From a virus, in the IMG/VR virus record IMGVR_UViG_3300030106_003144, positions 1,269-40,835 of that record: a stretch of 39,567 nt of DNA; one strand, given 5' to 3'. Shown one piece after another: positions 1,103 to 16,823 of this stretch (position 1 is the first letter of the stretch; every line of letters starts with the position of its first letter). The notes below the pieces were generated by a model that was given only the letters and a program-made list of their open reading frames with translations, ran no database searches and was not told the origin of the DNA. The translations under genes and the position numbers were made by a program.

Positions 1103-1815
1103 TGAGCAAGTTTGCAGCCGGTAAATACGCGCTAGGCGTCTCTGATCGCTCCGGCTTTGTGTACAAATTAAATGATATGCGCTTAGAGTGGACAGGAGCT
1201 TTAGTGGGTCCTGATGAATGGGAAAAGAAACAACCTCAATTAGATCCGCGCAAACATATTAGTGATCCGCAAGCTTTAAAAAATCCTCGACCCACCACTC
1301 CAATGGTTTTATCTATTTATGTAGGGGTTCCTTTGGTTGAAGACCCTAACTTGAGAAACCTTACTGCTTTTGGATTTGTAGGCGACGTTACCGTTAACAC
1401 CAACTTAAATGATGTGACGGTTTCTTTAACTGGTCTGGGATCTACGTCTAGCGTAGGGTCTGTCAGCGTTACGCCAACTACTACATACACAGTAACTGTG
1501 GCTAATCCGGGTTCGGGTAATAAGTTTTACATAGACGGCGTACAACAAGCGACTCTTAACTTAAACGAAGGTTCCACGTACAGGTTTGATCAATCCGACT
1601 CTTCTAACGGCTCTCCCACGCATCCTTTGCGTTTTTCTACAATAAGCGATGGTACATGGGGCGGCGGGTCGGAATATACCACCGGCGTGACTACAGCGGG
1701 CACACCGGGCACTTCCGGAGCTTACACCGAAATCGAAGTGGCTACTGGTGCGCCTACTTTATATTATTATTGTTCTAATCATTCAGGAATGGGAGGACAG
1801 GCGAATACGCCGTGA
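1102..1815 (+). CDS. virion protein with C-terminal cupredoxin-like domain
   Basis: A 237-residue protein in three parts. Residues 1-90 match a conserved marine-phage structural domain as I remember it (FAAGKYALGVSDRSGF and EWTGALVG near the start). Residues 104-121 hold one SLTGLGSTSSVGSV unit, related to the repeats of the gene at 3668. Residues 127-237 resemble a cupredoxin-fold domain, with H174 in an HPLRF segment and a terminal YYYCSNHSGM giving C224, H227 and M230. Cys-x2-His-x2-Met plus an upstream His is the classical type-1 copper ligand set. Copper binding is inferred; such domains recur in marine phage virion proteins, and the fold could be purely structural. The protein probably sits on the virion surface or in the tail. 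Confidence 0.72.
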   Translation: MSKFAAGKYALGVSDRSGFVYKLNDMRLEWTGALVGPDEWEKKQPQLDPRKHISDPQALKNPRPTTPMVLSIYVGVPLVEDPNLRNLTAFGFVGDVTVNTNLNDVTVSLTGLGSTSSVGSVSVTPTTTYTVTVANPGSGNKFYIDGVQQATLNLNEGSTYRFDQSDSSNGSPTHPLRFSTISDGTWGGGSEYTTGVTTAGTPGTSGAYTEIEVATGAPTLYYYCSNHSGMGGQANTP

Positions 1816-1819
1816 GATT

Positions 1820-2056
1820 ATGGAACGTCGAGTAAATTTAGGGGCAGGTTGTCCTTTGCGTATGAACAAAGGCGGCGAAGCCAAAAAGTCAAAAGTTAAC
1901 GAGGCCGGAAACTACACTAAACCCGGTATGCGTAAGCAGTTGTTTAACAGAATTAAAGCGGGTGGCAAGGGTGGTAATCCGGGCCAATGGTCGGCAAGAA
2001 AAGCGCAAATGTTGGCTAAAGAATACAAGGCAAAGGGCGGAGGTTATCGTAATTAA
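1820..2056 (+). CDS. small basic conserved phage protein
   Basis: About 78 residues if translation begins at the ATG at 1820, four bases after the stop of the preceding gene. An alternative start at 1862 would give 64 residues beginning MNKGGEAKK. A longer frame back to 1748 would overlap the preceding gene and begins with residues that are antisense-like and hydrophobic, so I reject it. About a quarter of residues are Lys or Arg. The core NYTKPGMRKQLFNRIKAG followed by PGQWSARKAQ is a conserved block of small proteins in uncultured marine phages. No function is known to me; the charge suggests nucleic-acid binding. The stop overlaps the next ATG (TAATG). Confidence 0.75.
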   Translation: MERRVNLGAGCPLRMNKGGEAKKSKVNEAGNYTKPGMRKQLFNRIKAGGKGGNPGQWSARKAQMLAKEYKAKGGGYRN

Positions 2057-2295
2057 TGGCTCTTAAAAAATCGCAAAAGTCTTTAAAAAAATGGACTAAG
2101 CAAAAGTGGGGCACAAAATCAGGCAAGCCCAGCGCAAAAACCGGAGAAAGATATTTGCCAAAGAGTGCAATAAAGTCGTTGTCTCCACAAGAATATGCAG
2201 CAACAACACGTAAAAAAAGGAAAGACACAAAGGCGGGAAAACAATTTTCTTCCCAACCTAAAAAGATAGCAAAGAAAACGAGAAGACATAGATAA
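2056..2295 (+). CDS. small highly basic conserved phage protein
   Basis: A 79-residue protein in which 27 residues are Lys or Arg. The pattern LKKWTKQKWGTKSGKPS, then TGERYLPKSAIKSLS and AATTRKKRKDTKAGKQF, is a conserved marine-phage small protein I recognise as a family, but without a known role. It has no cysteine, no signal peptide and no membrane segment. It is joined to both neighbours by TAATG overlaps and sits between two head-tail adaptor-like genes. A role in binding packaged DNA, or in a transient contact with DNA at the connector, is possible but is only inference from charge and position. Confidence 0.75.
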   Translation: MALKKSQKSLKKWTKQKWGTKSGKPSAKTGERYLPKSAIKSLSPQEYAATTRKKRKDTKAGKQFSSQPKKIAKKTRRHR

Positions 2296-2945
2296 TGGCG
2301 TTTACATACGATCAACTTAAAACAGCAATTCAGGATTACACGCAGAATACCGAAACGTCTTTTGTAACTAATCTGCCTGTTTTTATCCGTTCGGCAGAAG
2401 AACGTATTCTCAAAACTGTGCAGTTAACTTTATTTCGTAAAAACAGCACAGGAAATATGACGGCTAGTGATGAGTACTTAATACAACCTACTGATTTTCT
2501 TGCGCCTTTTTCGTTGTCTTTTACCGATGCCAACAATGACAAGAAATTTTTAGATTTTAAAAGCGTTAACTTTATACAAGAATTTAACCCTGACCGTACA
2601 GTCACCGGAGAACCGCGTTACTACGCTAACTTTGACGTAAGCTCTTTTATTTTGGGTCCAACGCCAAACAGTGGCTATGCTGTTGAATTACATTATTATT
2701 ATCGCCCTGCAAGTTTGACAGCGGGGGCGGGTAGCGGTGAAACATGGTTGAGTCAAAATGCAGAATTAACTTTATTATACGGATGCTTAATAGAAGCTTA
2801 TGTTTACATGAAAGGCGATCCGGGTCTGATGCAAGAATATGAACAGCGTTATGCTGAATCATTAGTTGCACTCAAACAGTACGGTGAAGCTAAAGAAGTT
2901 ACCGATGAATATCGCACAGGCATGGTTATACGGGAGAAAACATGA
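2295..2945 (+). CDS. head-tail adaptor protein (SU10-adaptor-like)
   Basis: A 216-residue protein. The first 50 residues (YDQLKTAIQDYTQNTE, then FIRSAEERILKTVQ) are the conserved start of a podovirus adaptor family that I associate with the phage SU10 adaptor. The middle is beta-rich. The last 60 residues are helical (NAELTLLYGCLIEAYVYMKGD, ending in a YEQRYAESLVALK helix). Known members form a ring below the portal that links the head to the tail nozzle, so this supports podovirus-like architecture. Start ATG overlaps the upstream stop (TAATG), and the stop overlaps the next start (ATGA). Family placement is by eye. Confidence 0.7.
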   Translation: MAFTYDQLKTAIQDYTQNTETSFVTNLPVFIRSAEERILKTVQLTLFRKNSTGNMTASDEYLIQPTDFLAPFSLSFTDANNDKKFLDFKSVNFIQEFNPDRTVTGEPRYYANFDVSSFILGPTPNSGYAVELHYYYRPASLTAGAGSGETWLSQNAELTLLYGCLIEAYVYMKGDPGLMQEYEQRYAESLVALKQYGEAKEVTDEYRTGMVIREKT

Positions 2946-3232
2946 TTACAAACGGTTTAACAATGTCTGCCGGAGCAGTAGAAGTTCATACTACGACAAA
3001 TCGAGGTTTTACTCCCGAAGAAGTAGCTTCGCGCTGTGTGGACAGAATTATTAGTATTTCGGATCAAGCTAACCCTATATTGCAACAACAGGCTCATGCT
3101 TTTAAAGGAAATATAGAGTCGGTCATTGCTCATTACATTAAAGAAGCAATTCAAAGTGACAGAACTACGATCTATAATGCGTTAAACGATGCTGGACAAC
3201 CCAAACTAGCCGATTTGATTAGGAGATTATGA
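2942..3232 (+). CDS. conserved small phage protein of unknown function
   Basis: A 96-residue protein beginning at an ATGA overlap with the adaptor gene. The sequence is predicted mostly helical after residue 20, with the conserved stretches NRGFTPEEVASRCVDRI and SDRTTIYNALNDAG. Proteins of this size and pattern occur widely in marine phage late regions, nearly always beside an adaptor gene. I know of no experimental function. No signal peptide, membrane segment or metal motif is present; its single Cys (position 32) is not in a recognisable motif. The fixed neighbourhood suggests a connector assembly or virion role, which is inference. Confidence 0.75.
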   Translation: MITNGLTMSAGAVEVHTTTNRGFTPEEVASRCVDRIISISDQANPILQQQAHAFKGNIESVIAHYIKEAIQSDRTTIYNALNDAGQPKLADLIRRL

Positions 3233-3233
3233 C

Positions 3234-3668
3234 ATGGCTTTTACTGGAAATTATATGTGCACTAGCTTTAAAAAAGAGCTAATGCAGGGTATACACAATT
3301 TATCTCTTTCTGGAGGTAACACTTTTAAAATGGCGCTCTATACAGACGCTGCTACTTTGGACGCAAGCACCACCGCTTATACTACGTCGAACGAAGTATC
3401 TGGGTCGGGTTATAGTGCTCCAGGTAAAAATTTAACTAACGTAGATCCTCTGACTAGTGGCACGACTGCTTATGCAGAGTTCGGTGATCAAACGTGGTCT
3501 ACTTCTACGATTACGGCACGAGGAGCTTTGATCTATAATGACACTGCTTCTGGCGATCCTTCTGTAGTAGTTTTGGACTTTGGATCAAACAAATCGTCAA
3601 GCGCAGGTGATTTTGCAGTTGTAATGCCTACGTTTAACTCAAGTTCGGCGCTTATTAGGATTGCCTAG
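3234..3668 (+). CDS. conserved beta-rich virion protein
   Basis: A 144-residue Ser/Thr-rich, almost cysteine-free protein starting at ATG 3234 with an AGGAG element about eight bases upstream. It begins YMCTSFKKELMQGIHNL and then continues as alternating beta strands (FKMALYTDAATLDAS, ITARGALIYND, VVVLDFGSNKSSSAGDF). This is a recurrent protein in marine phage genomes, usually placed among fibre or decoration genes. The beta-sandwich look fits a capsid decoration or tail appendage protein, but no activity is known to me. The stop TAG shares its G with the GTG start of the next gene, suggesting coupled translation. Confidence 0.72.
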   Translation: MAFTGNYMCTSFKKELMQGIHNLSLSGGNTFKMALYTDAATLDASTTAYTTSNEVSGSGYSAPGKNLTNVDPLTSGTTAYAEFGDQTWSTSTITARGALIYNDTASGDPSVVVLDFGSNKSSSAGDFAVVMPTFNSSSALIRIA

Positions 3669-4366
3669 TGGCTACGGACGTAACCATCCGCTTAGAAGGA
3701 TGGGGTGTTTCCAGTTGGGGTTCTTCGACCTATGGCTGGGGGCAAACCTCCGCAGGAGTAGAGGCTACCGGGGGTGTTGGTCAGGTTACACTTGCAGGTG
3801 ATTCTAGTGTAACTTTGACAGGAGTAGAAGCTACCACCGCCGTTGGTTCGGTGTTGGTCAACGTGATATTTCACGTTACTGTCAATTTGACAGGTGTGGC
3901 CGCTACTACCAGTGTAGGAACGGCAGTTGGAAGCATTCCCGTTACCATACCGTTGGATGGTTGGGGAATAGGCGATTGGGGTGATGCCGGTTGGGGTTAC
4001 TCTAGCGCCGGATCAGAGGCTACAACGGCTGTGGGTCAAGTTGATGCCCAAGCTGAAGGCACTGCCAACGTCGATGGCGTCGAAGCCACGACGGCTGTAG
4101 GGTCCGTTACGACTACAGGTACAGCTAATGTAACGCTAACCGGAGTAGAAGCTACTGCTTATGTGAATGCCGTAACGCCGAGTATACCGGCGATTTTTGG
4201 TGTAACAGGCGTGTCAGCTACCGGAGAAGTTGGTACAGTAACGCAAAGTACAAGTATTACAGTGAATTTGACGGGAGTACAGGCAACGGGACACGTGGGC
4301 GGTACTTCAATGTGGATTGAAATTCAGCCGTCACAAACACCTAATTGGGTTCCGATGGCAGCTTAG
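3668..4366 (+). CDS. repeat-rich virion or fibre protein, GTG start
   Basis: A 232-residue protein started by GTG at 3668, overlapping the preceding TAG by one base. It holds eight copies of an eleven-residue motif of the form G-V-x-A-T-x-x-V-G-x-V, at residues 30, 52, 76, 115, 137, 159, 181 and 203. Spacing is about 22 residues except for one 39-residue step. The first half is partly duplicated: Trp-rich segments GWGVSSWG and GWGIGDWGDAGWG each precede a repeat. Composition is extremely low in charge and suits a fibrous beta structure. One related unit also occurs in the cupredoxin-bearing protein. A virion appendage is the likely role; the exact location is unknown. Confidence 0.68.
   Translation: MATDVTIRLEGWGVSSWGSSTYGWGQTSAGVEATGGVGQVTLAGDSSVTLTGVEATTAVGSVLVNVIFHVTVNLTGVAATTSVGTAVGSIPVTIPLDGWGIGDWGDAGWGYSSAGSEATTAVGQVDAQAEGTANVDGVEATTAVGSVTTTGTANVTLTGVEATAYVNAVTPSIPAIFGVTGVSATGEVGTVTQSTSITVNLTGVQATGHVGGTSMWIEIQPSQTPNWVPMAA
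3755..4306 (+). repeat. eight-copy GVEAT-type repeat
   Basis: Eight eleven-residue motifs (G-V-x-A-T-x-x-V-G-x-V) with a main period of 66 bases inside the gene at 3668. DNA copies differ at many third positions, so these are old or strongly diversified repeats rather than fresh duplications. Confidence 0.8.
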
Positions 4367-4379
4367 TGAGGGCTAAACA

Positions 4380-5390
4380 ATGGCAACTTATGTAAACAAT
4401 TTAAGACTCAAAGAGATCGCTACGGGTGATGAGAGTGGTACTTGGGGTACTTCAACGAACACCAACCTTGAGTTAATTGGTCAGGGATTGGGTTATGGCA
4501 CAAAACAAATGTCTGCGGATAGTAATGAGACTTTTACTATGGCAGATGGGTCTTCGGATTCAACCCGTGCCTTTTATCTTAAAATCACATCAGCGGTAAG
4601 TTTAACTACTACTCGCACGGTGACATTAGCACCTAATACGGTTTCTAAGATGTGGATTGTTGAGAACTCTACAAGCGGTTCTCAGTCAATTAACATCAAG
4701 CAAGGTTCTGGTAACGAAGTTACGATTGCCACGGGTAAGGCGGTTATCTTGTATACCGACGGTGCAGGAGCTACAGGTGCTGTAAACGACGCTCTACAAT
4801 TTGTAGATGTGGGCGATGGTACGGTGACTTCGGTAGGCGGTACAGGTACGGTCAACGGTTTAACTTTGAGTGGTACAGTCACCTCTTCGGGTGATTTAAC
4901 ACTGGGCGGTACATTAGCCAATGTCGATTTAGCGGCAGCCGTCACTGGCACTTTGCCGGTAGCCAACGGTGGCACAGGGGCAACGTCGCTTACAGCGAAT
5001 GCTGTTTTAATAGGCAGCGACACCTCTGCTATTAGCACTGTGTCTCCTGGAACTTCCGGCAACGTACTTAAAAGTACAGGTTCGGCATGGGCTTCCTCTG
5101 CACCGAGTGGACAACCCGATCCTACTTTGACAGGTGTCAACTTAGCCGCTACAGCAGGGCAGTTTATTGTAGCGACAGCAGGTAGCATTACGATTACGTT
5201 ACCGGCAGCACCGTCGGCGGGTGACTTTGTTATCGTGAAGGATGGGACCGGAGCCGCTGCCACTACGAGTTTTGCGGTAGCCCGTAACGGTAGCAACATT
5301 GCCAGTTCAGCTACTGACCTGACATTTGATAAAAACTTCGCTGAAATAACAATGACCTACATCGATGGAACCATTGGTTGGAGCGTATAA
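4380..5390 (+). CDS. tail fibre protein
   Basis: A 336-residue protein with a GAGGG element seven bases before the ATG. The N-terminus (MATYVNNLRLKEIATGDESG, then TWG) is a common phage fibre beginning and probably attaches to the tail. Residues 190-200 carry GTLPVANGGTG, a hallmark short repeat of phage tail fibres, followed by VLIGSDTSAIS and GNVLKSTGSAW. The last 80 residues form a beta-rich tip (LPAAPSAGDFVIVKDGTG, ending IDGTIGWSV). It directly precedes the propeller genes with no gap (stop at 5390, next ATG at 5391). It may be a base fibre to which those proteins bind; that link is inference from order alone. Confidence 0.8.
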   Translation: MATYVNNLRLKEIATGDESGTWGTSTNTNLELIGQGLGYGTKQMSADSNETFTMADGSSDSTRAFYLKITSAVSLTTTRTVTLAPNTVSKMWIVENSTSGSQSINIKQGSGNEVTIATGKAVILYTDGAGATGAVNDALQFVDVGDGTVTSVGGTGTVNGLTLSGTVTSSGDLTLGGTLANVDLAAAVTGTLPVANGGTGATSLTANAVLIGSDTSAISTVSPGTSGNVLKSTGSAWASSAPSGQPDPTLTGVNLAATAGQFIVATAGSITITLPAAPSAGDFVIVKDGTGAAATTSFAVARNGSNIASSATDLTFDKNFAEITMTYIDGTIGWSV

Positions 5391-7991
5391 ATGACGAATT
5401 TAGCCGATCTGCTGCCAGCAGGTGGCGGTCAAAACAATACAGAGTTCGTAGCTGACGGAAACGTATCGGCGGGTGCGCCTGTCATTCTCACAGCGGCGGG
5501 TAAGGCGGCTCCTATCGCTCAAAGCCCTGTATCCGCAAGTATAACTGCCAACGGCAATTTTAATACTCTAAACACAAATATCTATATTGACTCGTGTTAC
5601 GACAGTAATAACGATAAGTTAGTCATAGTTTATGTTGCTGTGCATCCGTCTGGCCATAACGCCCTATATGCGATTGTCGGTACGATTGCATCTGACGGAA
5701 GTATTTCATACGGCACTGCTGAATTAGTATACAGTGATGCTAGTTATCAAGTAACTAGTTGTGCCGCGTGTTTCGATAGCACTAATAATAAAGTTATCGC
5801 AGCCTATACGAGAAATTCTGACAACTCAGGTAGGGCGCTTGTCGGTACAGTTTCGGGCACATCCATCTCTTTTGGTAGTGAAACAATATTTGAAAGCGGG
5901 GATGTTAATTCAACTATGAGAATGGCATTCGATAGCGTTAATGGCAAAACAGTAATTTGTTACAGAGATGGGGGGGCTTTAAACAGGCCCAAAGGGATTG
6001 TAGGAACAACTTCAGGTACGAGCATTAGTTTTGGTTCTGCAACAACAATTCAAGATGTTGATATACAAATAACTTCTGGTATTGGTTTTGATAGTAACTT
6101 AGGAAAAATAGTGTTTGCCTATCGAGACAATACCAACAGCTATTATGGAACGTGCGCTGTGGGAACGGTTTCTGGCACTAGTATCTCGTTTGGTACGCAA
6201 GTAGTTTGGGAGTCGGTTAATGTGCAAGCAATAGCTCCTAAAATTCCTTTTGACTCTACAAATAACAAACTTGTGTTTGTTTATGCCTACAGTGACCAAG
6301 ACGGTTATGCCATAGTAGGTACGGTTTCTGGCACTAGTATCTCGTTCGGTTCTAATGCAGAGTTTGAAAACGCAAACATAGACTACGTGGCAGCAGCCTA
6401 TAATCCTGACTCGGAAAAAGTAGATATATTTTATATGGATCAAGGTAATTCTAACTATGGCACATATGTTTTAGGCACAGTTTCAGGTACCTCTGTCTCT
6501 TTTAATACACCTGCGGTATTTAGGTCAGCCCAATGTCAATTTAATGCTACGACTTTTACCATTGAGGGAAGAACCGCTAACAGTTATGCGGATATTGGAA
6601 CTAGTTCTTACGGATCAAACCTTATTTATCAAGGTGCTTACGATGCAACAAACCTCACCGCAACCAACCTCTTAGGTCTTGCCCCAGAAGCCATCAGCGA
6701 CACAGCGACAGGCACGATTAATACTTGGGGTAGTCGGTGTGAGAGTTCGAGTCTTTTAGCCGATAGTTTGTCTTTAGCTTCTGCGGATACCACTTCAGGC
6801 AATACCAACAAAGAAAACGTGTCAATGGCGTATGACAGCAATGCTGACCGCACAATTTTAGTTTATCGTGACGGTGGTGATTCAGACAAATTAAAATGTA
6901 TTATCGGAACTCTGTCAGGTACTTCAACCAGTTGGGGAACCGCTGTAGAGATTGTAGGAGCCACAGCAGGGAACAGAGGGACGGCAGTAGTTTACGATAG
7001 CAATGCTCAAAGAGTATTGATTGCTTACACCAAAGCCTCGGATAATTATACTTATGTGCGTGTTGGTGAAATAAGCGGTACAAGTGTGACGCTAGGCACA
7101 GAGGTCGCGGCTTCAAGTTCAAACTCATATTACCCAGAGTTGAGTTACGATGTTGCAGATCAAAAAGTGTTATTGGTTTTTGCTAATGCGGGGGATAACT
7201 ATTATCCCTATAGTGCAGCCTGTACGATAACTGCCGTGGGTAATTCTGTAGCGGTGACTACACCTGCATCAATTGCAAGCCGTAACGCTTATGACCCTTT
7301 TGGGTTGGCTTACAATGTAAATGATGGAAAACACGTTTTGGACATTACTGATAACACCTCCACGGGTTATGCGTATGTTTTAACGATGTCTTCAGGCTCT
7401 ATCAGTGTGGGAGCAGAAGCCAGTTACAGCCCCGGATTTACACCAAGGCAATCTTTTTGTGTGTATGATTCTTCAGCCCAGAAGATAGTGCGAGGCTATT
7501 ACAGCAACAGTGACCCCCGTCCGGTTGAGTTTGCGGTAGCGTCTATTTCGGGAACTAATGTGAGCTTTGGAACGGCTGCTACGTGTTTTGCGGGGAATTC
7601 AGGAATGCAGGTATCTGGAACATTTTATTCCAGTATTAATCAACTTGCTTTTTTTAATATGCCTTTTGCTACGACAAGCGTTGAAACTAATTTTGGTACG
7701 GTTTCAGGAACAACGATTACTTTTGGGACAGCAACTACTGTTGCTTCTTCTGGGGTTAGTTCCGGTGCTTACTTTGACATAACTTACGACTCTACTGCTC
7801 AAAAATTAATATATGCCTATAGAGCAAGCACTTTTGATGCAGTGGTAGGGTCTTTTGGCACTACACCTTTAACCGTAACCTCTGATTACTACGTCCAAGA
7901 AGATGGAACTATATCCACCGATACAGGCGGTCAGCTAATAGGCAACGCGATAAAGACAAATCAGATTAACATCAAGGATTACACAGGATGA
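5391..7991 (+). CDS. double seven-bladed beta-propeller fibre protein
   Basis: An 866-residue protein. After an N-terminal cap (MTNLADLLPAGGG, then GNVSAGAPVIL), residues 69-420 hold seven repeats of about 50 residues. Their consensus is FDS-x2-NK-x-V-x-AYRD, an NS-x-YGTA loop, then GTVSGTSISFG and VFES; the seventh is degenerate. A short module (LTATNLLGLAPEAISD) starts at 421, and a second set of seven, more diverged repeats fills about 480-826. The tail is SDYYVQEDGTIST. Seven repeats of this length fit a seven-bladed propeller, the usual shape of glycan-binding or enzymatic domains; I see no catalytic signature. It is one of three paralogues in a row, joined to the next by ATGA. Confidence 0.78.
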   Translation: MTNLADLLPAGGGQNNTEFVADGNVSAGAPVILTAAGKAAPIAQSPVSASITANGNFNTLNTNIYIDSCYDSNNDKLVIVYVAVHPSGHNALYAIVGTIASDGSISYGTAELVYSDASYQVTSCAACFDSTNNKVIAAYTRNSDNSGRALVGTVSGTSISFGSETIFESGDVNSTMRMAFDSVNGKTVICYRDGGALNRPKGIVGTTSGTSISFGSATTIQDVDIQITSGIGFDSNLGKIVFAYRDNTNSYYGTCAVGTVSGTSISFGTQVVWESVNVQAIAPKIPFDSTNNKLVFVYAYSDQDGYAIVGTVSGTSISFGSNAEFENANIDYVAAAYNPDSEKVDIFYMDQGNSNYGTYVLGTVSGTSVSFNTPAVFRSAQCQFNATTFTIEGRTANSYADIGTSSYGSNLIYQGAYDATNLTATNLLGLAPEAISDTATGTINTWGSRCESSSLLADSLSLASADTTSGNTNKENVSMAYDSNADRTILVYRDGGDSDKLKCIIGTLSGTSTSWGTAVEIVGATAGNRGTAVVYDSNAQRVLIAYTKASDNYTYVRVGEISGTSVTLGTEVAASSSNSYYPELSYDVADQKVLLVFANAGDNYYPYSAACTITAVGNSVAVTTPASIASRNAYDPFGLAYNVNDGKHVLDITDNTSTGYAYVLTMSSGSISVGAEASYSPGFTPRQSFCVYDSSAQKIVRGYYSNSDPRPVEFAVASISGTNVSFGTAATCFAGNSGMQVSGTFYSSINQLAFFNMPFATTSVETNFGTVSGTTITFGTATTVASSGVSSGAYFDITYDSTAQKLIYAYRASTFDAVVGSFGTTPLTVTSDYYVQEDGTISTDTGGQLIGNAIKTNQINIKDYTG
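5595..6650 (+). repeat. seven-blade repeat array P1
   Basis: Seven tandem protein repeats of roughly 50 codons (residues 69-420 of the 866-residue fibre). Six are clear and the seventh, just before the LTATN module, has lost the YRD and GTVSGTS signatures but keeps length and spacing. These are the least diverged repeats of this gene: blades four and five share a 26-base identical stretch. Confidence 0.7.
6165..6346 (+). repeat. 26-base exact direct repeat in adjacent blades
   Basis: Bases 6165-6190 and 6321-6346 are identical and lie exactly 156 bases (52 codons) apart. They encode the TVSGTSIS core of two neighbouring propeller blades. Recombination between them would remove or add exactly one blade in frame. 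Confidence 0.85.
6828..7868 (+). repeat. seven-blade repeat array P2
   Basis: Seven more diverged repeats (residues 480-826). The consensus YDS-x2-QK-x-[VL] opening persists in most blades while the GTVSGTSISFG core is often changed, for example to GEISGTSVTLG. No LTATN-type module follows; the array runs straight into the C-terminal YYVQEDG tail. Confidence 0.68.
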
Positions 7992-9424
7992 CAAATTTAA
8001 GCGATCTGTTTCCTGCGGGTGCAGGTAAGCAAGTAAGTTTCACGGCAAGTGGTAACGTCACCTCGTCTGGTAAGCCTGTTGTCTTAAACAGTGATGGGAC
8101 TGTGAGTGAGGTGAGTGGTTCTTCTGACAGCGTAGGTTCATCAGCGATTTTTGGAGGAGACCCTTATTACCCTGCGGTAACTTACGATACGGCTAACGAT
8201 AAGATTGTGGTGGCGTACAGGGACGAGGGAGATTCAGGATATGCCAAGATGGTTGTTGGTACAGTTTCGGGAACCTCAATAACGTGGGGTACTCCTGTAA
8301 GTTTAGGAGTTGTGGCTAATTACACCGCAGTAACGTATGACGTTAACAGTGGCAAAGTTGTTGTAGCGTTGGTAAATGTAAATACGAATGAAGGTTTAGC
8401 TGCCTCTTGTACGGTTAGTGGGACAAGTATAAGTGCGGGTACATTGTATACTTTCAACAATGCAAACACAGAAGATATAAACATTGACTATGACTCGAAT
8501 GCTCAGAAATGTGTGATTTCATATTCTGACAAAGGTAATTCTGATTATGGCACTGCTATTGTAGCAACTGTTTCAGGCGCAACTTTAAGTTTTGGAAGTG
8601 AAGCGGTGTTCGCCGCTGGCACAGTTCAGCCATTGGGAGCAGCGTTTGATTCAACTAGCAATAAAATGATTTTTGCGTATCGAAAAAACAGCGTTGGTAC
8701 TGCTTGCGTGGGAACCGTCAGTGGCACTTCAATTAGCTTTGGAAGTGAAGTTGTATTCGAAAGTGGTGAGGCGTATGACATATCGGTTGTACACGATGTT
8801 AGCCAAAACAAAAACCTTATTGCATATCGAGATGTCAACAATTCTAATTATGGAACGGGCATTGTCGGAACCGTTAGCGGAACTTCAATCAGTTTTGGAA
8901 CTGGTGTAGTTTTTGAAAGTGCTGCTGTTAGACAAGTAAAGGCTGTTTATGATTCTAACAACAGCGCAACAGTAATAGGATATAATGATGATGGTAACAG
9001 TTACTACGGCACAGCGGTTTCCGCCACAATCAGTGGAACTACTGTTTCTTTTACTGACCCTTACGTTTGGCTATCAGGTAGACCGGGATTTTTAGGAGCG
9101 GGTTATGATCCTGACACTAACCAAGTAATTTTCGCTTATCGAGATAACAGCAATTCTAATCAAGGTACAGGGATTTGTTTTACGCCCGGAGCAACCAACC
9201 TTACCGCAACAAACTTTCTTGGCATCTCAGACGCAGCGATATCAAGCGCAGCTAGTGGGAACATCACCATCAAAGGCGGCATAGCAGCCACAGGTCTAAG
9301 CTCGTTGACTCCTGCAAGCGATTACTACGTCCAAGACGATGGAACAATAACGACTGTCACCAGTGATGTAAAAGCGGGTAAAGCCCTGTCAGCCACAGCA
9401 ATTAACTTGGAGTATCAATCGTGA
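7988..9424 (+). CDS. single seven-bladed beta-propeller fibre protein
   Basis: A 478-residue paralogue of the preceding gene, overlapping it by ATGA. The cap MTNLSDLFPAGAG is nearly identical to those of its neighbours. Residues 64-403 contain seven repeats with the same consensus (YDS-x2-NK, AYRD, NSNYGT, GTVSGTSISFG, VVFES). Then come the LTATNFLGISDAAISS module at 404 and the tail ASDYYVQDDGTITT. It therefore has the layout of one half of the neighbouring proteins plus the shared tail. It is probably a trimmed or ancestral form. The role is likely receptor or glycan binding on the tail; a purely structural spacer is possible. It ends by overlapping the next start (GTGA, with GTG at 9421). 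Confidence 0.77.
   Translation: MTNLSDLFPAGAGKQVSFTASGNVTSSGKPVVLNSDGTVSEVSGSSDSVGSSAIFGGDPYYPAVTYDTANDKIVVAYRDEGDSGYAKMVVGTVSGTSITWGTPVSLGVVANYTAVTYDVNSGKVVVALVNVNTNEGLAASCTVSGTSISAGTLYTFNNANTEDINIDYDSNAQKCVISYSDKGNSDYGTAIVATVSGATLSFGSEAVFAAGTVQPLGAAFDSTSNKMIFAYRKNSVGTACVGTVSGTSISFGSEVVFESGEAYDISVVHDVSQNKNLIAYRDVNNSNYGTGIVGTVSGTSISFGTGVVFESAAVRQVKAVYDSNNSATVIGYNDDGNSYYGTAVSATISGTTVSFTDPYVWLSGRPGFLGAGYDPDTNQVIFAYRDNSNSNQGTGICFTPGATNLTATNFLGISDAAISSAASGNITIKGGIAATGLSSLTPASDYYVQDDGTITTVTSDVKAGKALSATAINLEYQS
8177..9196 (+). repeat. seven-blade repeat array P3
   Basis: Seven tandem repeats, residues 64-403 of the 478-residue fibre, each 47-52 residues. All seven open with a [VA]-x-[YFH]D-type strand, and five keep a GT-[VI]-SGT core. 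The count of seven equals that of the other four arrays. Confidence 0.72.
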
Positions 9425-12006
9425 GCAATTTATCTGATCTACTCCCCGCAGGAGCGGCAGCAAAACAACTGACCTTTACCGATAGTGGCAGCGGGATAGC
9501 AACCAAGAAGCCTGTGATACTCAATAGTGATGGGACGGTTACGGAAGTGGGAACAACTACTCTCTCTATAGCAGTAGGTTCAGCAATAGATTTTAGTGGA
9601 GGTACGGCTACTGGTAAGGGTTATTACGCATCAGTTTGTTATGACACGGCTAACGATAAAATATTTATTGCTTATCGAGATGCAGATAACAGTGGGTACG
9701 GAACAGGGGTGGTGTGTACGGTTTCTGGTACTACTTTGTCTGTAGGAACTCCGGTTGTGTTTTCAAGCAATTTGACAAGTTATACGTCTTGTTGTTTTGA
9801 TTCTAGCAATAATAAAGTTTTTGTGGCTTATCAAAACTCAAGTGGTCAAGGTGAAGCCGTAGTCGCTACAATTAGTGGAACCAGTGTTTCTTATGGAGCG
9901 GCAGGTCGTATAGAGGGAGGAGGCTCACAGCAAGCAGGTTACATTGAAGCTGTGTATGATGCTAACGCAAGTAAGGTTTTTACCGCTTATTACGATAGCT
10001 ACAATGTTGGTGCTTATGGAACGGTACATACCATTTCAGGCACAGGTTTCAGTTCTGGAAGTCCTGCTAGTTTTGGCAGTTATTACTATCCTTTAGGAAT
10101 AACCTATGACTCAACTGCTCAAAAAATAATTACGACCATACAAACATCGGTAAGCACCTTGTTTTCTGTATCTGTGACTATATCTGGAACAAATTGGGCT
10201 AATGGAACTTATTTAAGTATTGGCCCTTGTAATGGAAACGCTGATGTTTCGTATGATCCTGTACAAGATAAAACTTTGCAGTACTTTAATGATGCGACCG
10301 CTAATACGGGGAAAGTAGCTGTACTTTCTTTGTCAGGTACGACTTTATCAAGCGGATCACAAGTTGATAATACGGGGAGTGGCGAAGGTTACCTCAAAGC
10401 TGTTTACAACGCAGCATCAGCAAGTCATGTAATTATGTGGAGTACAGGTTCGGCAGGAAAAGCTAGAGATGTCACCATTAGCGGAACGACCCCAACACTT
10501 AACGCAACAACCACTGATTGGTCTAGTGATTATTTAGACTACATTGGTGCAGCGTATGATGAAGATCAAAAAGTAACAGTAATTGCCACGGCTAATGATG
10601 TTGCTCCTAAATGCTACGCCATTGCTTATCAAAGTGCTTATGAAGGAACCAATCTTGACGCTACTAATTTCGTAGGAGTAGCCGACTCTGCTATATCTTC
10701 CAGTGCTGCGGGTAGCATAATCGTGCAGGGCGGTACGGTTAGCGGGGTGGCAGGGCCGTCTACATTGAGCGCAGGAAGTCCTGTTACCTATTTGTCTGCG
10801 GGAGGGTATTACGGTGCAATAGCCTATGATACTAATTCTGATAAGGTGGTAGTTGTAAATCGTGACGATAGCTCTACACCGAGCGGGTATGGAGTGGCGT
10901 ATGTAGGAACAGTAAGTGGAACGAGTATTTCTTATGGAACGCAAGTTGTTTTCAATTCAGGAACCTCTACTAACTATATTGATATATGTTTTGATGCGTC
11001 TAATAACACCGTTGTCGTTGTATACAAAGATGGTGGTAATTCTGGATACGGTACAGCTATCGTGGGAACAGTTGCAGGAGGTAATATAACTTTCGGTTCG
11101 GAGGTTGTTTTTAATTCTGCATCAACCGATGCTTGCAAAGTTGTGTATGATTCTTCCAACAATAAAGTAGTAGTCAGCTACAGAGATACTGGTAATTCTA
11201 ATTATGGCACAGCTATCGTGGGGACAGTTTCAGGGACGAGTATAAGTTTCGGAACCGCAGCGGTTTTTGATTCTCAGGCTATAGAGGCAGATAATGGTAG
11301 TGCCATAGCTTTTGATACATCTTCAAACCAAGTAATTATTCTTTACAGAGAATCAGCGACTTACTACATAAATGCTGTAACAGGGTCGGTGAGTGGAACA
11401 AGTATTACTTTTGGAACTCCTGTGGACATTAGTACAGATGGAATAGGGTCTTATCACGATTACCCAAGTGTTTGTTACGATTCCACTGCAAACAAACTTC
11501 TTTTTGCTTTTAGGTGGGCCAGTTCTACAGGAGCGGGACTTGCAAAAGTAGGAACTGTAAGTGGAACTGCGATTAGCGTAGGAACAGTAGTAGAGTTTGG
11601 AGCAAAAGCAAAATACCTTTCTTCTGTTTTCGATACATCATTAAATCAAGTTGTTATTTCCTATCAAGAATACGGAACTACTACTTATGGATATTTAGTT
11701 AAAGCAACTATTAGCGGGACAGATGTTACTTTTTCAACTCCTGAAGTTTGGTCAGGTACAACCCCTGTTACTTACTTAGATACAGTGTACGATCCAGACA
11801 CACAATCTATTGTTTCTACATTTGCCGATTCAGCGGCAAGTTATTATGGGAAAAGTATAGTTGCTAAGTTTTCTACAGACCTAACCGCAGGAACCAAATA
11901 CTACGTCACCACCTCTGGTGGCTTTTCAAGTTCAGCAGACACGCCAAGCGTTAATGCAGGATTAGCGATTTCAACAACATCATTACTTTTAAACGGAGAC
12001 TCGTAA
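9421..12006 (+). CDS. second double seven-bladed beta-propeller fibre protein, GTG start
   Basis: An 861-residue paralogue starting with GTG inside the stop of the previous gene. The cap MSNLSDLLPAGAAAK matches the other two. Residues 72-410 hold seven repeats, many quite diverged (blades four to seven lack the YRD loop). The module TNLDATNFVGVADSAISSSA starts near 410. Residues 467-821 hold seven better-conserved repeats, including AIVGTVSGTSISFG. The tail KYYVTTSGG resembles YYVQEDG of its paralogues. The order cap, propeller, module, propeller, tail is the same as in the 866-residue protein. No catalytic residues are recognisable. The likely role is host-surface recognition, inferred from fibre context. 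Confidence 0.77.
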   Translation: MSNLSDLLPAGAAAKQLTFTDSGSGIATKKPVILNSDGTVTEVGTTTLSIAVGSAIDFSGGTATGKGYYASVCYDTANDKIFIAYRDADNSGYGTGVVCTVSGTTLSVGTPVVFSSNLTSYTSCCFDSSNNKVFVAYQNSSGQGEAVVATISGTSVSYGAAGRIEGGGSQQAGYIEAVYDANASKVFTAYYDSYNVGAYGTVHTISGTGFSSGSPASFGSYYYPLGITYDSTAQKIITTIQTSVSTLFSVSVTISGTNWANGTYLSIGPCNGNADVSYDPVQDKTLQYFNDATANTGKVAVLSLSGTTLSSGSQVDNTGSGEGYLKAVYNAASASHVIMWSTGSAGKARDVTISGTTPTLNATTTDWSSDYLDYIGAAYDEDQKVTVIATANDVAPKCYAIAYQSAYEGTNLDATNFVGVADSAISSSAAGSIIVQGGTVSGVAGPSTLSAGSPVTYLSAGGYYGAIAYDTNSDKVVVVNRDDSSTPSGYGVAYVGTVSGTSISYGTQVVFNSGTSTNYIDICFDASNNTVVVVYKDGGNSGYGTAIVGTVAGGNITFGSEVVFNSASTDACKVVYDSSNNKVVVSYRDTGNSNYGTAIVGTVSGTSISFGTAAVFDSQAIEADNGSAIAFDTSSNQVIILYRESATYYINAVTGSVSGTSITFGTPVDISTDGIGSYHDYPSVCYDSTANKLLFAFRWASSTGAGLAKVGTVSGTAISVGTVVEFGAKAKYLSSVFDTSLNQVVISYQEYGTTTYGYLVKATISGTDVTFSTPEVWSGTTPVTYLDTVYDPDTQSIVSTFADSAASYYGKSIVAKFSTDLTAGTKYYVTTSGGFSSSADTPSVNAGLAISTTSLLLNGDS
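9634..10650 (+). repeat. seven-blade repeat array P4
   Basis: Seven tandem repeats, residues 72-410, preceding the LDATN module. Blades four to seven are strongly diverged but keep the ~48-residue period and a TISGT- or SLSGT-like core. Confidence 0.68.
10819..11883 (+). repeat. seven-blade repeat array P5
   Basis: Seven tandem repeats, residues 467-821. Blades one to three are close to one another at both the protein and DNA level (compare around 11050 and 11207), suggesting recent copying, while blades six and seven are diverged. Confidence 0.72.
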
Positions 12007-12007
12007 C

Positions 12008-12370
12008 ATGAGCCAAACTATAACTCGAAATGACGGCAACGTAAGCGTTTATGTTTTTAACGATAGCGTTAATGTCGATTTATCAGCAACACCTAACGCG
12101 ACTGTGCGTAACAACGGCGACAACGATTTTGATATTGGTGATCTAAATGCCAGTAATGCCACTCTGCACACCGGAGTTACTGCTCCAGATGGATGGCAAG
12201 GCGGTAAGCACACCTATGACGGCAGTTCTTGGGGCGATGTCAGCGGATGGGTTGATCCCGCAGCGGGTATGCTAGAGCAAGACAAAGTTCGATATGAAGC
12301 TAATGCGACTTACAGCTCAACTTTTACTGATGCGGTACAGACTGAAATAGACCGTATTAAAGCGTTGTAG
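12008..12370 (+). CDS. small conserved virion-region protein
   Basis: A 120-residue protein with GGAG nine bases before its ATG, one base after the last propeller gene. It is acidic and beta-rich, with Asn/Asp-rich segments (NDGNVSVYVFNDSVNVDLS, RNNGDNDFDIGDLNASN) and a Trp-containing centre (GWQGGKHTYDGSSWGD). The end is a short helix (FTDAVQTEIDRIKAL). Similar small proteins follow fibre genes in marine phages; I know no function. Position directly after three fibre genes suggests a fibre-associated protein or assembly chaperone. This is inference from neighbourhood only. Confidence 0.65.
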   Translation: MSQTITRNDGNVSVYVFNDSVNVDLSATPNATVRNNGDNDFDIGDLNASNATLHTGVTAPDGWQGGKHTYDGSSWGDVSGWVDPAAGMLEQDKVRYEANATYSSTFTDAVQTEIDRIKAL

Positions 12371-12574: not shown

Positions 12575-13059
12575 TCGGTGAAGCTTTACTTGCAATCAAA
12601 GCCCTAGACAGCGCATTTGTCGTTGTACAGTCGGCTATTGCCAAGAAAAAAGAAGTCGAGGACATGGCTGGTGAAGTAGGCCGATTTTTTACCGCCAAAA
12701 AGAAAGTTGAAGAGCAGATGCAAAAAGCTCGTCAGGCTGGAAACGATGATTTATTGGTAGGTTCTGCGTTAGAGGAAGCTATTACCATAGACCAGCAAGA
12801 AGAACGCATAGAAAAGATGATGGAAAAAATCCGTGACCATTATATGCGTCAGGGAAAGACACACAGATGGGGCAAGATCAAAGCTGAAGCAGCCAAGATT
12901 GAAAAGAAACGGGAAGTTAAAAGAAAGCAAAAAGCCGCCGCAGAAAAAGCAGAGGACGCTTTGATACGTGATTTAGCCGTGATGTTTGCATGGTTAGTAG
13001 GTACGGTTGTTTTTATTTTCGGTGCGGTATTTTTAATTTTTGGGATTGGAGCCGAGTAA
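12571..13059 (+). CDS. C-terminally membrane-anchored coiled-coil phage protein
   Basis: A 162-residue protein with start chosen at ATG 12571, where ATGA overlaps the upstream stop; a GTG at 12562 adds only three residues. Residues 21-130 are highly charged and helical (AKKKVEEQMQKARQAG; EKKREVKRKQKAAAEKAED). Residues 135-160 are one strong membrane segment (LAVMFAWLVGTVVFIFGAVF). It thus looks like a tail-anchored protein with a basic coiled coil on the cytoplasmic side. Related proteins occur near lysis genes in cyanophages as I recall. It could assist holin function or act on the inner membrane. Known inner spanins have the opposite, N-terminal, anchor, so I do not call it one. Confidence 0.68.
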   Translation: MIGEALLAIKALDSAFVVVQSAIAKKKEVEDMAGEVGRFFTAKKKVEEQMQKARQAGNDDLLVGSALEEAITIDQQEERIEKMMEKIRDHYMRQGKTHRWGKIKAEAAKIEKKREVKRKQKAAAEKAEDALIRDLAVMFAWLVGTVVFIFGAVFLIFGIGAE

Positions 13060-13802
13060 TGAAACTAGACCCTGTACTGCTTAACATGGCGTGTTCTTGG
13101 AGTATGAAGGCTTATGACGATGAGAACAAAAAAACCATAAAGATAGAAAGCCGACTCACTTCCACTACGGTCTACATAGCCAAACGTAAATCCATAGACG
13201 TAATTGCTTTTAGGGGTACACAACAAGGTCGGGATTGGCTAACTGATGCTATGGTGATACCTATTCCTTATGCAGGAAGGTTATGCCACGGGGGATTTGT
13301 AGCTGCTCATGCGTCCGTATGGCGGGAAATTAAAAAACACCTAGATATGAAGAAACGTACATTAGTCTGTGGGCATAGCCTTGGTGGTGCGTTGGCAGAG
13401 CTAACTGCGGCCAAGTTGTGGAAGAAACACCCTAACCTCAATCTTATTACCTTTGGTAAGCCAAATACGTTCTTCAAGGGTTTTAAACGCCCTATGACTT
13501 TAGACAAACAAATTTCCTGTGTGGCTGGTTCTGATATGGTGGCTCGTATACCCCGTATTTGCTATGGCCCGTCTAAGTCACAGACAATGCTATACTTTGC
13601 TAATAATGGGCAGGACTTGATTGATCCTGAGAAACAAGTACGTGACGAAGACAGAGGTGGGTTAAAAGACCGAATTACTGACCACTTTATGGAGGGCTAT
13701 AAAGAACGGTTAGAAGGATTCTTAGACAACCAAGACAAAGAACTTAGTGAAGAAGAAGTGAAAGAATTAAAAACACTTATTGATGAGGCTGAAGATGCTT
13801 AG
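13059..13802 (+). CDS. class 3 lipase-like alpha/beta hydrolase
   Basis: A 247-residue enzyme with start chosen at ATG 13059, where TAATG overlaps the preceding stop; a longer reading to 12990 would overlap a real gene in another frame. The class 3 lipase pattern is clear: VIAFRGT with DWLTDA at 48-64 (oxyanion strand), CHGGFVAAHASVW at 76-88, nucleophile S107 in VCGHSLGGALAEL, D159 in AGSDMVARIPR, and H209 in ITDHFMEGY. Spacing and context of this Ser-Asp-His triad fit triacylglycerol or phospholipid hydrolases. There is no signal peptide, so it would act from the cytoplasm or after holin opening. It lies between a membrane-anchored protein and a lipoprotein, suggesting membrane-lipid hydrolysis at lysis. 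The substrate is unknown. Confidence 0.85.
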   Translation: MKLDPVLLNMACSWSMKAYDDENKKTIKIESRLTSTTVYIAKRKSIDVIAFRGTQQGRDWLTDAMVIPIPYAGRLCHGGFVAAHASVWREIKKHLDMKKRTLVCGHSLGGALAELTAAKLWKKHPNLNLITFGKPNTFFKGFKRPMTLDKQISCVAGSDMVARIPRICYGPSKSQTMLYFANNGQDLIDPEKQVRDEDRGGLKDRITDHFMEGYKERLEGFLDNQDKELSEEEVKELKTLIDEAEDA

Positions 13803-14948: not shown

Positions 14949-16823
14949 ATGCCACTTAAAAAACTTCAATTAAAACCGGGAGTTAACCGCGAAAACACTC
15001 GTTACACTACAGAGGGCGGGTGGTATGAGTCTGATAAAGTCCGGTTTCGTCAGGGTATGCCTGAAAAGATTGGAGGGTGGGAACGTATTTCAGCAAACAC
15101 GTTTCTGGGAGTATGTCGTTCACTTTGGAACTGGATTACGTTAGGTAAACAAAACCTCGTAAGTGTGGGGACACACCTTAAATACTATATAGAGCGTGGT
15201 GGTGGGTACAACGACATTACACCTATTAGAGAAACTACAGCAGCGGGAGATGTAACCTTTGCTGCCCTTAATGGTTCTCCTACGCTGACGGTTTCAGATA
15301 CAGCTCATGGGGCTGTTGTAGGTGATTTTGTTACTTACTCAGGTGCGGTGAGTTTGGGGGGTAACATAACAGCGGCTGTGCTTAATATTGAGTATGAAAT
15401 AGTCAGTGTGGTTAACGATGATTCCTACACCATAACTGCTGCGGTAAGTGCCAGTGCGGGAGATACAGGCAACGGTGGGGCTTCTACAGTAGGTGCATAC
15501 CAACTAAACACAGGGTCAGCTACAGGTGTACCGTTCACTGGTTGGGGCGCAGGAACATGGGGACAAGGTACTTGGGGTAATGGTGGTATAACTACTTCTC
15601 CGATCAGGCTTTGGAGTCAATCAAATTACGGGGAAGATTTAGTATTTGCTTATCGTGGTGGGCCATTATGCTATTGGGCGGCAAACACAGGTGTGTCCGT
15701 ACGAGGCAAAGTAATTAACACTACCAATTATCCTTCGTCTACCGATGTGCCTTCTATCACTAATTTTGTAACAATTTCAGATATTTACCGCTTTGTATTT
15801 TGTTTTGGTGCTAACACTTTGGGTACAGCAGTCCAAGACCCTATGCTTATTCGGTGGTCAGATCAAGAAGATGTGTTTAACTGGACTCCTTCAGCTACTA
15901 ATTTTGCTGGGAGCCAACGTCTTTCTCGCGGCACAGAGATTATAACTGCAAGGCAAGCAAGACAAGAGGTGTTAGTTTGGACAGATGCCGCTTTGTACTC
16001 TATGCAATATGAAGGTGGAGATGCCGTGTGGAGTGTTCAGTTACTCGGAGATAATATTTCTATTGCAAGCCAAAATGCTACTGCGTATGCAGGAAGTACG
16101 GCCTATTGGATGGGTAAAGATAAGTTTTACAGGTATGACGGTACGGTGATGACATTACCCTGTAATGTTAAACGTTATGTTTTTAATGACATAAATACTG
16201 AGCAGTTTAATCAAGTAGCAGCCGGGACTAATGAAGGATTTAATGAAGTATGGTGGTTTTATCCGTCTGCTGGAGAAACTACGAATGACCGTTATGTGGT
16301 GTATAACTACCAAGAAAATGTGTGGTATTACGGCACGTTAGCTAGAACCGCATGGTTAGACTCAGGATTGCGAGACAGACCTATAGCAGCTACTTATAGT
16401 AATAATTTGGTAGAGCACGAAAAGGGCAATGATGACAAACAAACAAGTGTGACGGCTGCTATTACTGCTTCTATTACTTCTTCTGAGTTTGATTTGGATG
16501 ATGGGCATAGTTTTGTGTTTATAAGCCGAATGCTGCCTGATGTGACTTTTGACGGCTCCAGTGCAGTAAGCCCAGCGGCTACGATGACTATTTCACCTAT
16601 GTCTAATTCGGGGTCTGGGTATAACAATCCATTGTCTGAAGGGGGTGATGCAGCAGGTACGGTAACACGGTCAGCAACAGTGCCAATAGAGCAGTTTACA
16701 GGTCAAGTGTATTTACGTTTACGTGGGAGGCAAGTAGCTTTTAAAATGGAGTCTACAGCAGAGGGAGTGGCATGGCAGTTAGGTTCTCCACGATTAGATA
16801 TGCGGCCTGATGGTAGACGGTAA
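14949..16823 (+). CDS. tail hub / nozzle protein (P22 gp10 or T7 gp12-like)
   Basis: A 624-residue protein. The N-terminus (LKPGVNRENTRYTTEGGWYE, then VRFRQGMPEKIGGW) is the recognisable start of podovirus stabilisation or tail-hub proteins such as P22 gp10, which close the portal channel below the adaptor ring. Residues about 100-175 are an inserted immunoglobulin-like module (TVSDTAHGAVVGDFVTYSG). Near 198-210 lies a Trp/Gly-rich segment (GWGAGTWGQGTWG) resembling that in the gene at 3668. The remainder has beta-propeller-like strands (ALYSMQYEGGDAVWSVQLLG; YNYQENVWYYGTLARTAW). It is encoded after lysis genes, separate from the adaptor genes. The nozzle role is by family resemblance; confidence in virion location is high. 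Confidence 0.78.
   Translation: MPLKKLQLKPGVNRENTRYTTEGGWYESDKVRFRQGMPEKIGGWERISANTFLGVCRSLWNWITLGKQNLVSVGTHLKYYIERGGGYNDITPIRETTAAGDVTFAALNGSPTLTVSDTAHGAVVGDFVTYSGAVSLGGNITAAVLNIEYEIVSVVNDDSYTITAAVSASAGDTGNGGASTVGAYQLNTGSATGVPFTGWGAGTWGQGTWGNGGITTSPIRLWSQSNYGEDLVFAYRGGPLCYWAANTGVSVRGKVINTTNYPSSTDVPSITNFVTISDIYRFVFCFGANTLGTAVQDPMLIRWSDQEDVFNWTPSATNFAGSQRLSRGTEIITARQARQEVLVWTDAALYSMQYEGGDAVWSVQLLGDNISIASQNATAYAGSTAYWMGKDKFYRYDGTVMTLPCNVKRYVFNDINTEQFNQVAAGTNEGFNEVWWFYPSAGETTNDRYVVYNYQENVWYYGTLARTAWLDSGLRDRPIAATYSNNLVEHEKGNDDKQTSVTAAITASITSSEFDLDDGHSFVFISRMLPDVTFDGSSAVSPAATMTISPMSNSGSGYNNPLSEGGDAAGTVTRSATVPIEQFTGQVYLRLRGRQVAFKMESTAEGVAWQLGSPRLDMRPDGRR

Follow-up and report, generated by a model that had tools for sequence, protein, structure and literature searches.

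Propellers are already known in phage host-binding proteins, with phi11, PRD1 P2 and phiKZ gp131C as examples (PMC4901313). PhiKZ gp131C carries a seven-bladed propeller in a tail appendage at the baseplate periphery and is suspected of receptor binding (PMC4901313). The receptor-binding protein of the S. aureus phage phi11 also contains a propeller, and its receptor is a teichoic-acid sugar (PMC4901313). In the podovirus SU10, the nozzle protein of the tail has a seven-bladed propeller with inserted domains (PMC9509320). Here we describe a locus in which the relationship between propeller and host domain appears to be organized differently.

The locus lies in a stretch of 39,567 nucleotides of viral DNA (IMG/VR record IMGVR_UViG_3300030106_003144, positions 1,269 to 40,835), which we call the window and whose positions are used throughout. 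Three tandem open reading frames, all on the plus strand, occupy positions 5391-12006 exactly as the original prediction had placed them. They encode proteins A (slot 1; 5391-7991, 866 residues), B (slot 2; 7988-9424, 478 residues) and C (slot 3; 9421-12006, 861 residues), and both the A/B and the B/C pairs overlap by 4 nt. Directly upstream on the same strand, a 336-residue tail-fibre protein (4380-5390), the putative stem or anchor, ends in a TAA stop that abuts the ATG of A. Downstream, also on the plus strand, a 120-residue protein (12008-12370) is a possible fibre chaperone or tip.

Several other genes of the window were recorded alongside the cluster. Upstream of the fibre gene, positions 3668-4366 encode a 232-residue protein with short repeats of the TGVEATTAVGSV type, which was matched in 31 related loci and has no family match. 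A Class 3 lipase-like gene (12990-13802; PF01764, 68 bits) sits between the fibre cluster and the holin and lysozyme genes. A 2,095-residue open reading frame at 23644-29931, with no PHROG or Pfam match, probably encodes a large DNA-ejection or internal virion protein.

Seven repeats per array and a predicted propeller fold

The repeat arrays were counted with a blade HMM that was seeded with the seven repeats of B only and then iterated on A, B and C. It finds seven units in each array (7+7 in A, 7 in B and 7+7 in C), which makes 35 units in five arrays. The units score 21-75 bits, compared with a best score of 6.5 bits in 100 shuffles of the three proteins, and the earlier count of exactly seven repeats per array in a 2+1+2 arrangement is borne out. 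Seven per array is a trait of the family, beyond the window: among 100 arrays from relatives and window, 88 have seven units by direct count and 98 if undetected units are allowed for. The two arrays counted as having eight blades, both in relatives, include extra matches that are short or overlapping, and these counts were rejected.

The arrays are predicted to fold as propellers. An AlphaFold model of B, built from an alignment of 51 relatives, has a mean pLDDT of 86.9 and reaches about 97 in the propeller (8132-9202, residues 49-405). With VIA-align, this model superimposes on YncE with a Z-score of 32.5 (rmsd 2.5 over 305 residues) and on the seven-bladed lectin BP39L with a Z-score of 31.9. 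The model of A, built from an alignment of 22 sequences (pLDDT 75.7, pTM 0.47), contains two propellers. The region containing the first (5559-6626, residues 57-412) matches BP39L with a Z-score of 32.7 when model residues 64-418 are compared, and that containing the second (6780-7868, residues 464-826) matches Sec12 with a Z-score of 28.9 over model residues 457-825. Outside the propellers, the cap, the LTATN module and the tail are modelled poorly, the cap and module with low confidence, and the orientation of one domain to another is left undefined, as the pTM of 0.47 for A indicates. The models thus support closed rings of four-stranded blades for the single array of B and the two of A, and the closed seven-bladed propellers that had been expected agree with solved seven-bladed folds at Z-scores of 28.9-32.7. 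For C, we infer the two propellers (9574-10626, residues 52-402; 10774-11883, residues 452-821) from the repeats alone.

Sequence alone assigned the proteins to no family. When A, B and C were searched singly against PHROGs and NCBIfam, and B against the PDB, nothing useful came back, and a propeller profile had zero matches to PLL lectins at E 0.1. Pfam matches to Cyclophil_like2 were short, fell inside the repeats and were judged to be due to chance.

Seven-bladed lyases and glycoside hydrolases are found among the structural neighbours (Z 28-29.6), as would be expected if the propellers were enzymes that degrade or modify surface polysaccharide in the manner of propeller-fold sialidases or rhamnose-glucuronate lyases. 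However, non-enzymatic lectins and WD40 proteins stand equally among these neighbours. Moreover, in 51 relatives with a single array, conservation of 90% or more is confined within the propeller to T142, G145, G197, D221, G246, S349 and G350, all of which belong to the repeated YD and TVSG motifs, and nothing among them resembles one conserved catalytic set. We therefore regard an enzymatic role as very unlikely.

One small domain interrupted by propellers

The original prediction described three modules shared by the proteins, namely a cap, an LTATN-type module after the first array and a YYV tail. All three parts are indeed present in A, B and C, but relatives that lack propellers show that they do not stand as separate modules. 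Judged from sequence, they make up a single domain of about 110 residues that is split by the propellers, and we refer to this domain as the frame. In A, the blade HMM boundaries and the comparison of excised frames give a cap at 5391-5558, an LTATN module at 6627-6779 and a tail at 7869-7988 with the slot-1 ending INIKDYTG. The module and tail of B (9203-9421) end in INLEYQS, characteristic of slot 2, and the tail of C (11884-12003) has the slot-3 ending SLLLNGDS.

Excising the propellers from 73 proteins leaves 108-113 residues, and a profile of these excised frames finds the domain in unbroken form within a 1,699-residue tail fibre of the related locus L049 (46.6 bits; residues 285-383 in profile-search numbering). 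This natural, empty frame is 34-47% identical to most of the excised ones, and the same fibre contains a second frame with a propeller-like insert. In four further loci (L025, L033, L071 and L072), a 120-residue slot-2 gene joins the slot-2 cap to the slot-2 tail without a propeller. It is because such propeller-free versions exist in nature that we read the frame as one domain. The frame profile also matched PLL lectins weakly, and this match was set aside, as it was the sum of pieces of less than 9 bits each. We also observed a propeller-free slot-1 frame (L015:1376-2494) followed by about 250 glycine-rich residues at the C-terminus, which seem to be another type of tip.

What is inserted into the frame varies among relatives. 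Proteins of about 480 residues have one seven-blade array, those of about 860 residues have two, and those of about 750 residues have one array plus a different domain. This domain, found in proteins of about 740-760 residues in L005, L008, L010, L014, L026 and L028, has five repeats of about 50 residues with the pattern FSVSSQDT...FNxDGTKMFVVG, as read by eye and roughly counted. Its Pfam matches include SGL, a propeller family (31.7 bits, cut-off 26.3), and it is probably a five-bladed propeller from a second repeat family unrelated to the seven-blade one. The insertion sites differ as well: the second seven-blade array enters before the YYVQxDG motif, and the five-repeat domain enters after it, one hairpin later in the frame.

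These combinations show that the 2+1+2 arrangement does not define the family, as it is only one of ten layouts among 17 complete related clusters. Three propeller genes are present in 14 of the 17. In L033, which was counted as a two-gene cluster, the empty 120-residue gene sits between the two genes. In clusters of only two genes, the proteins at L007:7211-8698 and L022:2373-4970 combine a cap resembling that of slot 2 with the tail of slot 3, as would result if a deletion had fused these two slots.

Variable and conserved faces of the propeller

Because the strands are antiparallel, one face of the propeller is made up of blade positions 9-14 and 31-39, and the second face of positions 20-25 and 47-3. 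Across eleven close array pairs, amino-acid changes affect 16.3% of the first face compared to 5.8% of the second, with a Fisher p of 2.5e-13 that overstates the certainty because the pairs are not fully independent and blade positions were pooled. Synonymous changes in the same pairs are equal on the two faces (16.3 and 15.7%). The arrays begin near blade position 1 and end near position 51, so both chain ends should exit on the conserved face, toward the frame. In the predicted fold, the face that has varied recently therefore lies opposite the chain ends and points away from the frame. This variable face is probably the binding face, and its ligands are probably surface glycans.

Frames keep their slots and propellers move between them

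Frame and propeller behave differently with respect to slot. Median identity within the same slot compared to different slots is 75% versus 55% for the cap, 64% versus 40% for the module and 60% versus 42% for the tail, whereas for the arrays it is 31.1% versus 31.5%. By this measure the frame parts are slot-specific and the arrays are not. At an identity of at least 70%, 73 of 179 arrays fall into 31 clusters. Ten of these clusters occur in more than one slot, compared to 22.5 expected under shuffled slot labels, and slot fidelity is thus partial, with exchange rarer than free mixing. None of the 31 spans array positions, where 10.6 would be expected by chance.

Close pairs show exchange at the level of DNA. 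Window positions 1775-5491 are 92% identical to L039, and this identity ends inside the slot-1 cap, beyond which the arrays differ with one exception. The exception is the second propeller of A, as window positions 6774-7874 are 93.5% identical to positions 8015-9115 of L039, which encode the second propeller of the slot-3 protein, given as 93% identical to that of A. In A, this common segment covers residues 462-828 and the propeller residues 464-826, so the edges of the two agree within 2 residues. The slot-3 proteins of L033 and L053 have a second propeller 95% identical to that of C, yet their first propellers are at most 52% identical; the first propeller of C is 90% identical to one in slot 3 of L028. 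In the one pair examined, no recombination site common to the cassette edges was evident. The 40,835-base record, possibly an incomplete one, was searched for an RVT_1 domain, as would mark a diversification (DGR) reverse transcriptase, and none was found.

An important caveat is that every high-identity relative is a metagenome contig, and single contigs could be misassembled. Sharing of cassettes between slots could then be an artefact of assembly, or of slot labels that were set wrongly. We consider this highly improbable, because ten separate clusters show slot sharing, the DNA-level pairs have intact reading frames with edges at propeller boundaries, and slots were assigned from caps, tails and a gene order that are all conserved. 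Genuine exchange of whole propellers is the reading that we carry forward.

A probable role in host recognition at the tail fibre

The neighbouring genes point to the tail fibre. In its N-terminal half, the 4380-5390 protein shares 54-56% identity with the tail fibres of Roseobacter phages CRP-901/902, and its C-terminal 110 residues are common to other annotated tail fibres. This gene was matched in 54 related loci and the 12008 gene in 38, the latter having a relative in phage ICBM2 that is annotated as tail assembly chaperone / tail fiber protein. The two flank the propeller genes in the 17 complete clusters: the fibre gene lies 2-3 nt ahead of slot 1, and the 12008 gene comes directly after the last propeller gene. 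Two natural fusions point the same way, a fibre stem joined to a propeller protein in L044 and the propeller-like insert within the long (1,699-residue) tail fibre of L049. A, B and C also have features of receptor-binding tail-fibre proteins, namely a fibre gene as neighbour and a conserved attachment part combined with a variable tip part.

Because of this synteny and the two fusions, the fibre assignment made in the original prediction gains support, and we consider it likely that A, B and C are tail-fibre host-recognition proteins, in which slot-specific frames carry exchangeable propeller cassettes at fixed loops.

The frame itself raises a different possibility, as it resembles the capsid protein family Phage_cement_2 (PF09956). 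The excised slot-2 frame of L003 scores 25.1 bits, above the cut-off of 24, and the empty frame of L049 is a weak match at 18.5 bits, below the cut-off; the excised frames of A, B and C have no match. A cement-like frame could bind the head and leave the propellers on the outside, where they would serve as lectins and improve adhesion to cells, and decoration proteins can have a part in binding target cells (PMC7602432). However, the position of the genes between the tail-fibre gene and the 12008 gene, the fusion to a fibre stem in L044 and the inclusion in the tail fibre of L049 would not be expected of capsid proteins, and we regard capsid decoration as unlikely.

The SU10 nozzle protein, which has a seven-bladed propeller with inserted domains (PMC9509320), suggests another structural role, and an SU10-like adaptor is encoded in the window. 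A better nozzle candidate, however, is the conserved single gene at 14949-16823, whose relatives are annotated as stabilization or needle protein. Three propeller genes that are variable, exchangeable and sometimes propeller-free are ill-suited to form a channel, and the chance that A, B and C are nozzle proteins seems close to negligible.

Returning to tail-fibre host recognition, we propose an arrangement in which location in the virion, docking order and oligomeric state are features that we infer. Each protein would consist of a small slot-specific attachment domain, the Phage_cement_2-like frame of about 110 residues, plus inserted propeller cassettes. Loop 1 would take the first seven-bladed propeller, loop 2 the second and, in relatives, loop 3 the five-repeat domain that is probably a propeller. 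The frames would dock on the stem (4380-5390) and on each other, and such docking would explain why frame ends and slot order are constant. It would be the conserved face, where both chain ends exit, that attaches each propeller to the frame. Host range could then change when whole cassettes are swapped between phages, and sometimes between slots, with assembly undisturbed.

A more far-reaching version is a plug-in system, in which three scaffolds that function even when empty take none, one or two propellers at sites particular to each loop, cassettes are shared across the population and across slots, and each virion has several binding specificities. We offer this version tentatively, as it may be slightly less probable than its converse.

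A search of the genome collection gave no clear host, only two distant matches in MAG contigs, one of them with clear fibre-like neighbours. These contigs, L068 (Acidimicrobiaceae MAG) and L069 (Planctomycetaceae MAG), contain frame-like and propeller-like genes and are probably phage contigs binned with bacteria. The fibre and lysis neighbours in L069 resemble those of the window.

Implications and comparison with known systems

Marine phages must keep pace with changing host surfaces. In this family the variable unit can be seen to be a whole propeller, gained or lost at fixed points of the scaffold in three slots, and versions with none, one or two propellers occur naturally. The recent pair of the window and L039 gives an example: their upstream tail regions are 92% identical, and a 1.1 kb cassette sits in a different gene in each. 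The number of specificities per phage and their exchange become directly testable, and the empty frames provide minimal constructs for structural work.

The nearest described systems each share part of this architecture. The PLL and BP39L seven-bladed lectins rank at or near the top among structural matches to the propellers of the window (Z about 30-32.7), but they are free lectins with only 8-13% sequence identity to them (PMC6943638). In the SU10 nozzle, the inserts lie in the propeller and the role is structural, whereas in A, B and C the propellers appear to be inserted in another domain and to form a variable tip (PMC9509320). Phage_cement_2 is a capsid cement family, whereas the similar frame here is attached to probable tail-fibre proteins and is interrupted by propellers. 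The only cultured-phage match is gp49 of Lentibacter phage ICBM2 (MF431616), which is 33% identical, has the same repeats and is likewise followed by a relative of the 12008 gene. However, it is a single such gene, annotated as hypothetical, and its N-terminus is unlike those of the window proteins.

Among proteins with a known or suspected receptor-binding role, that of phi11 differs from A, B and C in being five-bladed and trimeric, with a stem and tower and one propeller per chain (PMC4901313). In phiKZ gp131C, the single propeller is C-terminal, and the account of it mentions no interrupted frame, tandem slots or exchangeable inserts (PMC4901313). The earlier view that no phage fibre with this layout had been described therefore holds in part: seven-bladed propellers in phage tails were known from phiKZ gp131C and the SU10 nozzle, but a search of open-access literature, in which most subscription journals are missing, turned up no account of exchangeable propellers set into a frame that tandem slots have in common. 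Propellers in phage host-binding proteins are thus an established theme, and what appears to be new in this locus, as far as we have found, is the architecture of exchangeable inserts.
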